Shown here: in pieces, positions 25,587-27,916 of the stretch
Numbering within the stretch: position 1 is the stretch's first letter
Layout of the letters: every line of letters begins with the position of its first letter
From: Rhodospirillales bacterium
GTDB taxonomy: Bacteria > Pseudomonadota > Alphaproteobacteria > Reyranellales > Reyranellaceae
Assembly (NCBI GenBank): GCA_947466085.1
Contig: CANIEC010000017.1
Location: 1-46,570, forward strand
Direction of reading: 5' to 3'
Length of the DNA: 46,570 nt
Notes under the pieces: model-generated
Database searches by the model: none
What the model saw: only the letters and a program-made list of their open reading frames with translations
What the model was told of the DNA's origin: nothing
Made by a program: the position numbers and the translations under genes

Positions 25587-26237
25587 ATGCTCAAGGTCAT
25601 GATCGCCCCCGTCACCCCGTTCCAGCAGAACTGCTCCATCGTCTGGTGCGACGAGACCATGGAAGGCACCGCCGTCGATCCCGGCGGCGACTTCGACATG
25701 CTGCGCCAGGCGATCGACCAGCAGGGCATCAAGGTGACCAAGGTGCTTCTGACCCACGGGCATGTCGACCATGCCTCGGCGGCCGGCACCATGGCCGAGC
25801 ATTACGGCGTGAAGATCGAGGGCCCGCACGAGGACGACCTGTTCCTGATCGAGGGCCTTCCGGACTCGGGCCGGAAGTACAATTTCCCGGTCTACAAGCC
25901 GTTCGTGCCCGACCGCTGGCTGACCCACGGCGAGACGGTGAGCCTCGGCAACGTGACCTTCGACGTGGTGCACTGCCCCGGCCACACGCCGGGGCATGTC
26001 GTGTTCGTGAACAAACCCGCAAAGGTCGCGTTCGTGGGCGACGTGCTGTTCCGCGGCTCGATCGGCCGCACGGATTTTCCGCGCGGCAATCATGACCAGC
26101 TCCTCGATTCGATCCGCCACCGCCTGTGGCCGTTCGGCGACGACATCACCTTCGTCCCCGGCCACGGCCAGACCTCGACCTTCGGCTGGGAGCGCAAGAC
26201 CAACCCCTACGTCGCCGATCTCAATTTCGAGGATTAG
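25587..26237 (+). CDS. MBL-fold metallo-hydrolase, glyoxalase II-like (YcbL type)
   Basis: A 216-residue cytoplasmic metallo-beta-lactamase-fold hydrolase. The metal-binding motif THGHVDH gives His57, His59, Asp61 and His62; CPGHTPGHVVF, FVGDVLFRGSIGRTDFP and FVPGHGQTS supply the remaining ligands. The GRTD segment and size fit YcbL/type-II glyoxalase relatives that hydrolyse S-lactoylglutathione or related thioesters, but many members have unknown substrates. It is the only plus-strand gene between trxA and the methyltransferase, and splits a run of minus-strand genes. Its stop codon sits in a palindrome with the stop of the zeta-like gene. Confidence 0.88.
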   Translation: MLKVMIAPVTPFQQNCSIVWCDETMEGTAVDPGGDFDMLRQAIDQQGIKVTKVLLTHGHVDHASAAGTMAEHYGVKIEGPHEDDLFLIEGLPDSGRKYNFPVYKPFVPDRWLTHGETVSLGNVTFDVVHCPGHTPGHVVFVNKPAKVAFVGDVLFRGSIGRTDFPRGNHDQLLDSIRHRLWPFGDDITFVPGHGQTSTFGWERKTNPYVADLNFED

Positions 26238-26247
26238 GGATCCCTAA
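26234..26247. repeat. Perfect palindrome holding two convergent stop codons
   Basis: The 14-base palindrome TTAGGGATCCCTAA contains the TAG of the metallo-hydrolase on one strand and the TAG of the zeta-like gene on the other. It marks one edge of the low-GC module. It may be a bidirectional termination or pause site or a junction sequence; the arms are too short for a strong terminator. Confidence 0.6.
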
Positions 26248-26849
26248 GACGAAACCGTCGGGACACGCCCGCCAAGTGCGTCCAATCTCATGCGCAGCCA
26301 CATCCAGCCAAAACGGTCGACGATCTTTGTAGAACCGCTTTCCTTGACAAGCGCCTCCAGCGGTCGCTCGGTGCGTGCATCGAACAGCACGGCCTCATCG
26401 CAAGCGTCCCAATAGTCTGCAAGCATCATCAATCCACTGCGGTGGCGTCTGTTGATGGTTTCGGTGTCGATATTGTGTCCACCTGCCATAACTCGCTGCT
26501 TTACTCGAAGTTCGTTCAGCTGTGGAAATGGCGTAAACAAAAAGATCAGACGCGTCTGATATCCAATGGCCTTCGCCTCTTCCACGAAGCGTAATAGCGA
26601 TCGCGTTGCCAAGGTCGTCTCGATGCAAAACGAACAGCGAAGCGCCAAACGAGACCGTCGCTCCCGGAGCATTTGACGAGCTGCCGCTATCGCAACGGCA
26701 GCCACATCATTTGGCCTGATGCCCCGAGCAATGTCGTCGGCATTGAGGAATGCATCTGTCTTGATGAAGTCGGCTAGGTTCGCGTGCGCGAATGTCGTCT
26801 TCCCGACCCCGTTGGGGCCTGCCAAGACCACAAGATAGGGCTTGGTCAC
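26244..26849 (-). CDS. Zeta toxin-like P-loop kinase
   Basis: A 201-residue AAA/zeta-toxin-type P-loop protein. Walker A is GPNGVGKT at residues 11-18, directly after a hydrophobic strand (PYLVVLA). FLNADDIARG and CIETTLATRSLL match positions of the acceptor-binding Asp and Glu-Thr-Thr segments of zeta-like kinases, and RVMAGGHNI fits the R-x4-GGH substrate-loop pattern of this family. Zeta toxins phosphorylate UDP-N-acetylglucosamine and block wall synthesis; chromosomal relatives may use other substrates. The start ATG overlaps the stop of a 62-residue upstream gene. The region is lower in G+C (58 of 120 bases at 26461-26580) than the neighbouring gene (40 of 60 at 25681-25740), which suggests acquisition. 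Toxicity is an inference. Confidence 0.8.
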   Translation of the reverse strand: MTKPYLVVLAGPNGVGKTTFAHANLADFIKTDAFLNADDIARGIRPNDVAAVAIAAARQMLRERRSRLALRCSFCIETTLATRSLLRFVEEAKAIGYQTRLIFLFTPFPQLNELRVKQRVMAGGHNIDTETINRRHRSGLMMLADYWDACDEAVLFDARTERPLEALVKESGSTKIVDRFGWMWLRMRLDALGGRVPTVSS

Positions 26850-27034
26850 TCGGGATTTTTAACGGGCAGGTGTTCTACGGCGACGCGTCGACCATCTGGA
26901 TAGATCGCGTAGATTGTCGATTCATCGGAGACGAAAACTGGTAAGCCACGAGCGTGCGCATCCTTGATGGCAGCAGCGACACCACGTTGGATGCCCACGG
27001 CCATTTCGTCGATCGTCGGAACAACGATGTCCAT
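26846..27034 (-). CDS. Small protein preceding the zeta-like kinase, candidate antitoxin
   Basis: A 62-residue protein with no signal or membrane segment. An N-terminal helix (IDEMAVGIQRGVAAAIKDAHA) is followed by a short strand-rich part (GLPVFVSDESTIYAIYPDGR). This 'helix then xGLPV...PDGR' layout is common in small genes that precede zeta/AAA kinases. Coupling by ATGA overlap with the kinase, shared low G+C and small size make an antitoxin or regulatory partner the best guess. It is not related to the epsilon or PezA antitoxins by eye. The ATG at 27034 is preferred to a TTG six bases upstream; neither has a clear ribosome site. No function is proven. Confidence 0.6.
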   Translation of the reverse strand: MDIVVPTIDEMAVGIQRGVAAAIKDAHARGLPVFVSDESTIYAIYPDGRRVAVEHLPVKNPE

Positions 27035-27082
27035 GCACAAAGACTAGATCAAAGACCGGTATCCGGCAACGAAGGCCCAGAC

Positions 27083-27916
27083 CTAGGCCTTCCGTACGCC
27101 CCTTACACCGTCGGCGAGAGCCTTGATGTAGGCGAAGACGCCCGGAATCAAATCGGGTTTGGCCTTGCCGTGGTCGTCGAGGCCCGCCTTCACGCGCTCG
27201 ACGATGGCGGAGCCCACGACCGCGGCATCGGCGTGACGCGCGATGGCCGCGGCCTGATCGGGCGTGCGGATTCCGAAGCCCACGCCGATCGGCAGTTCGG
27301 TGTGACGCTTGATGCGCTCGACATGGGTGCGCACGGCTTCTTCCGTCGCCGAACTGGTGCCGGTGATACCGAGCACCGAGACGAAGTAGACGAAACCCGA
27401 AGAATACCTCAGCACCGCCGGCAGGCGCTCGTCGTCGGTGGTGGGGGCCGTCAACAGCACGGTGTCGATGCCGGCCGCGACCGCGTAGGGCTTGAGTTCG
27501 TCGGCCTCTTCCGGCGGCAGGTCGACCAGGATGAAACCATCGACACCGGCGGCGGCGGCTTCCTTGCAGAAGCGCTCGGGACCGCGCTGGTAGACGAGAT
27601 TGTAGTAGCCCATCAGCAGGATCGGCGTGTCGTTGTCGCCGGTTTCCTTGCGAAAGCGACGCACCATGTCGAAGGTCGCATCGACGGTGATGCCGGCCTT
27701 CAGCGCGCGTTGACCGGCGAGCTGGATCGACGGGCCGTCGGCCATCGGGTCGGTGAAGGGCATGCCGAGCTCGATGAGATCGGCGCCGGCGGCCGGCAGG
27801 CCCTTCAGGATCTGGTAGCTGACGTCGAGGTTGGGATCGCCGGCGGTGACATAAGTCACGAGACCGGCACGTTTGTCGGCCTTGAGCCGGGCGAAGCGCT
27901 TGGCGATGCGACTCAT
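27083..27916 (-). CDS. trpA: Tryptophan synthase alpha chain
   Basis: Cleaves indole-3-glycerol phosphate to indole and glyceraldehyde-3-phosphate; the indole passes to TrpB. 277 residues forming a TIM barrel. The catalytic Glu49 and Asp60 occur in ELGMPFTDPMADGP at exactly the positions known for the enteric enzyme, and GFGIRTPDQAAAIA and VVGSAIV form the phosphate site. It starts two bases after the trpB stop. A 7-bp hairpin (GAAGGCC/GGCCTTC, 27071-27092) surrounds its stop codon without a T-run. The rest of the tryptophan genes except trpB and trpF are elsewhere. Confidence 0.97.
   Translation of the reverse strand: MSRIAKRFARLKADKRAGLVTYVTAGDPNLDVSYQILKGLPAAGADLIELGMPFTDPMADGPSIQLAGQRALKAGITVDATFDMVRRFRKETGDNDTPILLMGYYNLVYQRGPERFCKEAAAAGVDGFILVDLPPEEADELKPYAVAAGIDTVLLTAPTTDDERLPAVLRYSSGFVYFVSVLGITGTSSATEEAVRTHVERIKRHTELPIGVGFGIRTPDQAAAIARHADAAVVGSAIVERVKAGLDDHGKAKPDLIPGVFAYIKALADGVRGVRKA

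Follow-up and report, generated by a model that had tools for sequence, protein, structure and literature searches.

Zeta-family kinases with small proteins encoded next to them include epsilon/zeta of plasmid pSM19035 and PezAT of streptococci, in which the small gene comes first and overlaps the kinase gene, an arrangement also present in a related Enterococcus faecium plasmid locus, whose small gene reads as epsilon-like. A zeta kinase may also be paired with an antitoxin unrelated to epsilon, a precedent set by gonococcal ng_epsilon1 (PMC5923241). Here we describe a gene pair of the first arrangement in a stretch of 46,570 nucleotides, referred to below as the window, which is contig CANIEC010000017.1 (GCA_947466085.1) of a Rhodospirillales bacterium of the Reyranellaceae. 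The pair probably represents a chromosomal, type II-like toxin-antitoxin module, in which a zeta-family kinase toxin would be combined with a 62-residue antitoxin of an undescribed family.

Both genes lie on the minus strand. The partner gene, encoding the proposed antitoxin, has no named family and runs from an ATG start at 27034 to 26846 (62 amino acids; a TTG two codons earlier would give 64), and the gene for the zeta-like P-loop kinase, the proposed toxin of 201 amino acids, runs from a GTG start at 26849 to 26244. The partner stop and the kinase start share four bases at 26846..26849; the original prediction from the letters alone was right about this overlap but gave it as ATGA, whereas the bases are GTGA. 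We infer from the overlap that translation of the two genes is coupled. In the mechanism that we propose, where toxicity, neutralisation by binding and the substrate are modelled on zeta, ng_zeta1 and EzeT, translation of the antitoxin would precede that of the kinase and keep pace with it, and the antitoxin would bind the kinase and hold it inactive. Once the partner is lost, the free kinase would phosphorylate an essential small molecule, most likely a uridine diphosphate (UDP)-activated amino sugar as for zeta toxins, leading to a growth stop or to wall damage. The module would spread horizontally, settle in a slot between trpA and a metallo-beta-lactamase-fold (MBL) hydrolase gene and be kept there by selection on both proteins, and it could be lost or replaced.

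By its fold, the kinase is a member of the zeta family. It scores 32 bits against the Pfam Zeta_toxin cut-off of 22.3 and also passes the cut-off of AAA_33, which bears out its earlier description as zeta-like, and its confident structural model can be matched to zeta, PezT, AvrRxo1 and a polynucleotide kinase. The top Foldseek ranks for this model go to zeta and PezT; the ng_zeta1 structure stands at rank 46 and is absent from the 50-entry VIA list. Across 42 aligned kinase rows, the window included, G11, G14, G16, K17, T19, N36 and D38 are invariant, as are E77-T78-T79, R115, R119, G123-G124-H125 and R134-R135. The P-loop covers residues 11-18 of a chain that ends at 201, and D38 is the candidate catalytic base, judging from its spacing to K17. 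The protein combines the kinase fold with the P-loop, a candidate catalytic Asp and conserved Arg, as expected of a zeta-type enzyme. It is possible, although we consider it a good deal less likely than a UDP-sugar, that the same module acts on another target, such as nicotinamide adenine dinucleotide (NAD), another nucleotide or a nucleic-acid end; AvrRxo1 phosphorylates NAD, and polynucleotide kinases act on nucleic-acid ends. The Pfam assignment and the Foldseek order argue against such a target, and so does the invariant ETT motif, which would hold the equivalent of the Thr that contacts UDP-N-acetylglucosamine in zeta toxins (PMC3062530).

The partner gave no row in library scans of Pfam, PADLOC and PHROGs and a single NCBIfam row (expectation value, E, 0.12) far below the cut-off; the Pfam, PADLOC and NCBIfam scans detected no DNA-binding domain in it. 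A profile search of the PDB returned no convincing relative, and matches to designed propellers ('Cake') were discarded as relatives, since they consist of repeated 13-residue YAIxPDG stretches. By reading, the protein would form a helix, then a G-L-P-V strand and a Y-P-D-G-R hairpin. Forty proteins match it, and in 34 aligned partner rows (window included) A22, H27, G30-L31-P32, F34, Y42-A43, P46 and G48-R49 are invariant. For 12 of the 40, the longest contig is exactly as long as that of one among the 120 kinase homologues listed, compared with a mean of 1.1 and a maximum of 4 coincidences when lengths were shifted by 1-30 bases; one of the 12 (962 bases), which combines a close partner with a more distantly related kinase, may be a coincidence. 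Close relatives lie directly upstream of a kinase in loci L008-L011 and L003, and in L012 the partner open reading frame (ORF) is still open beside a broken kinase. This last locus, from genome G024 (L012 3715-4546, also L150), has the kinase split into two frames behind the open upstream partner ORF, as expected if a toxin is lost before its antidote. We found no name or description of the partner family in the titles and abstract openings listed by searches of the open-licence literature.

To learn how far the pairing extends, a profile made from the close family only was run on 6,925 six-frame ORFs from 88 kinase-centred loci (duplicates L002, L004, L046, L166, L167 and L179 omitted, L047-L057 and L058-L157 not used). 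This yielded 23 matches at E <= 1, all beside a kinase: judged by the matched stretch, 20 were no more than 120 bases from the kinase, 12 on its upstream and 8 on its downstream side, and the remaining three (L012, L028 and L038) adjoined kinases with a broken frame. Sixteen of the 23 lie outside the close family, while kinase-bordering ORFs make up 4.3% of all ORFs; because some of the sixteen come from related bins, no probability is claimed for them. At E <= 10 the matches were 18 upstream, 12 downstream, one fused and 13 elsewhere, with L012, L028 and L038 among the last. In an unselected test the same profile was run over 398 genomes of the phylum, and 12 genomes, including the window's own, gave a match at E <= 0.01. 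The best two of the other 11, L047 (2.3e-5) and L048 (6.3e-4), each lie just upstream of a zeta-like kinase, and eight others are apparently chance stretches without a kinase. The remaining one, an ORF very similar to the L047 and L048 partners, lies at L050 1459-1845 (minus strand), in a 3.1-kb stretch in which no zeta-like kinase was detected.

Profile-profile comparison connected the close family (A1) with a set of genes downstream of kinases (A4; probability 95.8, P 8e-9) and with an upstream set of the type 'GxPIYY...IKEYPDGRRELV' (A3; 92.6, P 5e-7), and the latter two with each other (92.9, P 4e-7). Rows for A3 and A4 were picked by eye and score from kinase-adjoining genes and are therefore selected sets; 30 column-shuffled controls, made for A4 alone and not for A3, gave P 0.11 or worse against A1. 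Close relatives of the partner stand directly upstream of the kinase, and distant ones upstream or, in other phyla, downstream. A merged profile detected a partner in 53 of the 88 loci (30 downstream, 21 upstream and two fused, one of which, L040, is a shortened kinase). Outside its training set it found one in 28 of 63 loci, at least eight of which are not independent: L003 and L008-L011 belong to the close family, L006 represents the place already covered by training row L179, and L017 and L184 are near-copies of training rows. Elsewhere in the loci this profile gave five matches at E <= 1, of which L038, L012 and a second L014 copy look like true members; the L014 gene (7169-7417) lies about 2.6 kb past the first kinase pair, with no kinase detected beside it. 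No member was found with the merged profile in 35 of the 88 loci, several of which are cut at contig ends or broken. Some of these 35 carry other small genes that read as Phd-like (L191, L195) or epsilon-like (L204), and in L186-L190 small genes of a 'DMPGRPKDWR' type ('PPPDMPGRPKDWRDQIKADLAAQVEAGGTLYGIRPDG'), possibly a further partner type, stand upstream of related kinases.

The distant partners gave sub-threshold rows only, in Pfam for ten proteins (AbrB_C at 0.032, DUF3253 at 0.053) and in NCBIfam for eight (a single row at 0.094). A match of the A3 profile to CPAP chains in the PDB (1e-6) covers 17-18 residues and was put down to a shared strand motif rather than to homology. The E. coli plasmid partner (L196 953-1204) matches phrog_21003, a family of unknown function, at 4.7e-43, and the wider partner set is thus also present in phage-family data. 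Conserved single-chain kinases that end in a 'EEMLEYYRRMGVKVTP' tail, which may be an antitoxin built into the same chain, are represented by a Verrucomicrobiia bin (L035 4001-4732) and 12 database proteins (P0162-P0173). The tail has a weak likeness to A4 (P 0.014; best of 30 shuffles 0.18). The model of a kinase-tail fusion from P0162-P0173 (predicted local distance difference test 85.4, predicted template modelling score 0.83) has a helix at 196-218 and falls under 50 at residues 229-243; since the tail resembles A4 weakly, the model was not used as evidence of docking. The presence of partner relatives next to similar kinases in several phyla and on plasmids suggests an undescribed kind of antidote. 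We lean towards the view that the partner founds an unnamed, phylum-spanning antitoxin family, by sequence with one helix, a G-x-P strand and a D/N-G hairpin, whose members would pair with zeta-like kinases whichever of the two genes comes first.

Of 72,556 plasmid records, 390 carry a relative of the kinase, with 283 covering at least 80% of the query, whereas 3 of 50,697 phage records do so; the Enterococcus plasmid records among the 390 are read as classical epsilon/zeta. In 18 plasmid loci that we chose and examined, the merged profile finds a partner in ten. Six of these had served to train it (E. coli pTA13-3, Zymomonas, Paraburkholderia, Cupriavidus, Synechocystis and Nostoc), and the other four, from Komagataeibacter, Butyrivibrio, Roseibium and Deinococcus, are weaker outsiders with E between 0.016 and 0.76. 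When the close profile is used by itself, the E. coli, Zymomonas, Paraburkholderia and Cupriavidus partners have E 0.3-1.2 and Nostoc 12, and Synechocystis is not among the matches listed. Of the features expected of a type II module, the pair shows two small, co-conserved and overlapping genes, relatives on mobile elements and a patchy presence.

On the chromosome, the slot is bordered upstream by trpA (27083..27916, minus strand), 48 bases from the partner start, and downstream by the convergent MBL gene (25587..26237, plus strand), whose stop is six bases from that of the kinase. The pair had been thought to split the trpA-accD neighbourhood; it does follow trpA, but its other direct neighbour is the MBL gene, and a D-alanyl-D-alanine carboxypeptidase gene also precedes accD. 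Both genes of the pair are foreign in base composition, with third-position G+C of 0.62 in the kinase and 0.56 in the partner, compared with 0.83-0.91 for trpA, trpB, folC, accD and the carboxypeptidase and MBL genes. The segment 26461-26580, earlier estimated at about 48%, has 48.3% G+C, and only eight 120-base windows, starting at 26411-26481, are at or below this value when the whole window is scanned in 10-base steps. A simple scan of 26150-27200 found no sigma-70 promoter, so the pair may be transcribed by unproven read-through from trpBA.

Of 61 genomes of the window's genus, 58 have a match to TrpA and 57 one to the MBL protein, mostly close together on the same contig. Among 41 trpA-MBL stretches compared (40 and the window), five carry the pair in the slot: the window, G029, G477, G465 and G006; G024 has its degenerate copy about 11 kb from the slot. 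In 20 further genomes of the genus, judged by coordinates, the TrpA and MBL matches lie 16-33 bases apart in 14 and about 490 bases apart in G036, and five lack one or both matches or have them on different contigs. A genome-wide search for the kinase in 36 of the 60 other genomes found it in G006, G024 and G029, and in G020 at 29% identity. The pair is not present in all close relatives, since in G025, G027 and G460, whose TrpA is 99% identical, the slot is 116-285 bases long and gives no blastn match to the window gap at E 0.01. The same slot holds the pair in L009, from a public bin named Rhizobium sp. Q54, and its flanks match the window's genus (TrpA 88%, MBL 90%), so the Rhizobium label may be wrong.

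In four of the five other carriers, the kinase and TrpA identities fall together (95.5/97.1, 74.6/88.4, 61.9/83.0 and 59.5/81.2 per cent); the exception is G029, with 98.6% for TrpA and only 54% for the kinase. This tracking, the G029 exception and the absences suggest that the slot has long been occupied, that the pair was lost from it several times and that at least once it was replaced or arrived separately. A single recent insertion is ruled out by the repeated occupation, and the insertion originally predicted is not a one-off event. The presence is patchy, and the conserved pairing of the two genes, whose absence would have counted against the original prediction, is upheld in close relatives, in the 88 loci and in the genome scan. 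The slot (26238-27082; L118-L157) varies by genome between almost nothing, repeat-like DNA and the kinase pair, and other contents include a small 'REPDRWEEECLSYALGAMACG' gene without a Pfam match, an aminoglycoside-adenylyltransferase-like gene (PF10706, L130) and, by reading, a carboxypeptidase-like gene (L147). Compared with L008, the ratio of nonsynonymous to synonymous substitution (dN/dS) is 0.020/0.189 (about 0.11) for the kinase and 0.007/0.117 (about 0.06) for the partner, in a single comparison with very few partner changes. In this one close comparison, the pattern is that of purifying selection on both proteins, and it rules out an accidental ORF.

The kinase could instead serve regulation or house-keeping without being toxic, with the small protein as a subunit that activates or stabilises it. 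Such a role would suit the chromosomal site among biosynthetic genes and the divergence in step with TrpA; we consider it unlikely, because close relatives do without the pair in the slot, a much diverged version accompanies a nearly identical TrpA in G029, relatives occur on many plasmids, related kinases have Phd-like or other small upstream genes (by reading), and the state of G024, where the partner ORF is open and the kinase next to it broken, fits the loss of a toxin. Still less probable is an addiction module in decay that no longer has a function, which could account for the foreign composition and patchy presence but not for two intact frames, the low dN/dS of both genes in that one comparison and the retention of conserved positions. 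The toxin-antitoxin reading itself has some counts against it: adjacency amounts to 20 strict and three broken-frame loci, slightly weaker than the undivided number, and many distant kinases have other small neighbours. That the small gene is an accidental companion with no functional link, as the 35 loci without this family might also suggest, is nevertheless hardly credible, given that all 16 distant matches at E <= 1 adjoin kinases (two of them broken), that the two best unselected genome matches do so as well, and that homologous partners occur in both gene orders.

Genes labelled 'zeta toxin family protein' or 'AAA family ATPase' are present on many plasmid records, and several in the loci examined adjoin a small gene that has no name. 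Should this small gene prove to be the antidote, such orphan kinases become toxin-antitoxin pairs open to testing, one of them in the klcB-kleE-TrfB-like-ParA region of an E. coli plasmid, and if the partner family is true, many 'zeta toxin family' genes of bacteria and their plasmids that look solitary would belong to two-gene modules of a single undescribed class. Neisseria gonorrhoeae has been reported to die when an endogenous zeta toxin is activated (PMC11964940), which gives practical weight to knowing which antidote holds which kinase.

Compared with epsilon/zeta and PezAT, the window kinase shares the kinase fold, the P-loop and the positions of the catalytic Asp and Arg, but it has 201 residues against 270-272 in the solved zeta chains, and no omega-type regulator gene adjoins the pair, unlike in epsilon/zeta. 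In epsilon/zeta and PezAT the two proteins form a 2:2 complex in which the ATP site is blocked by the antitoxin. The partner has no Pfam match at E <= 1 and no epsilon or PezA chain among the PDB profile matches listed, which agrees with the original prediction that it resembles neither; lacking an epsilon-type partner, the pair is not epsilon/zeta or PezAT. ng_epsilon1/ng_zeta1 of N. gonorrhoeae plasmids likewise joins a zeta-like kinase of a Gram-negative host to an antitoxin unrelated to epsilon (PMC5923241), and its antitoxin gene, given as 186 bp in PMC2848598, is similar in size to the partner gene. As PMC5923241 describes it, ng_zeta1 has shuffled blocks, its P-loop lysine at position 115 and an OB domain, whereas the window kinase has K17 and no extra domain, which places it outside that subclass; ng_epsilon1/ng_zeta1 chains are not among the PDB matches listed for profiles A1, A3 and A4. 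EzeT of E. coli is a zeta-like kinase held by an antitoxin part and toxic once this is removed, but that part is the N-terminal domain of one chain (PMC4803016), and the pair, with its two separate overlapping genes, is therefore not of the EzeT type. The AvrRxo1-ORF1/ORF2 system has 15% sequence identity with the kinase. The zeta gene of Synechocystis pSYSG (NC_005231) belongs to the same kinase family and is followed by a downstream small gene, which we placed in A4, in the reverse of the order in the window. PMC4963859 classes five pSYSG genes as toxin-antitoxin-related but short of its criteria, and from its position the zeta pair would appear to be among them.
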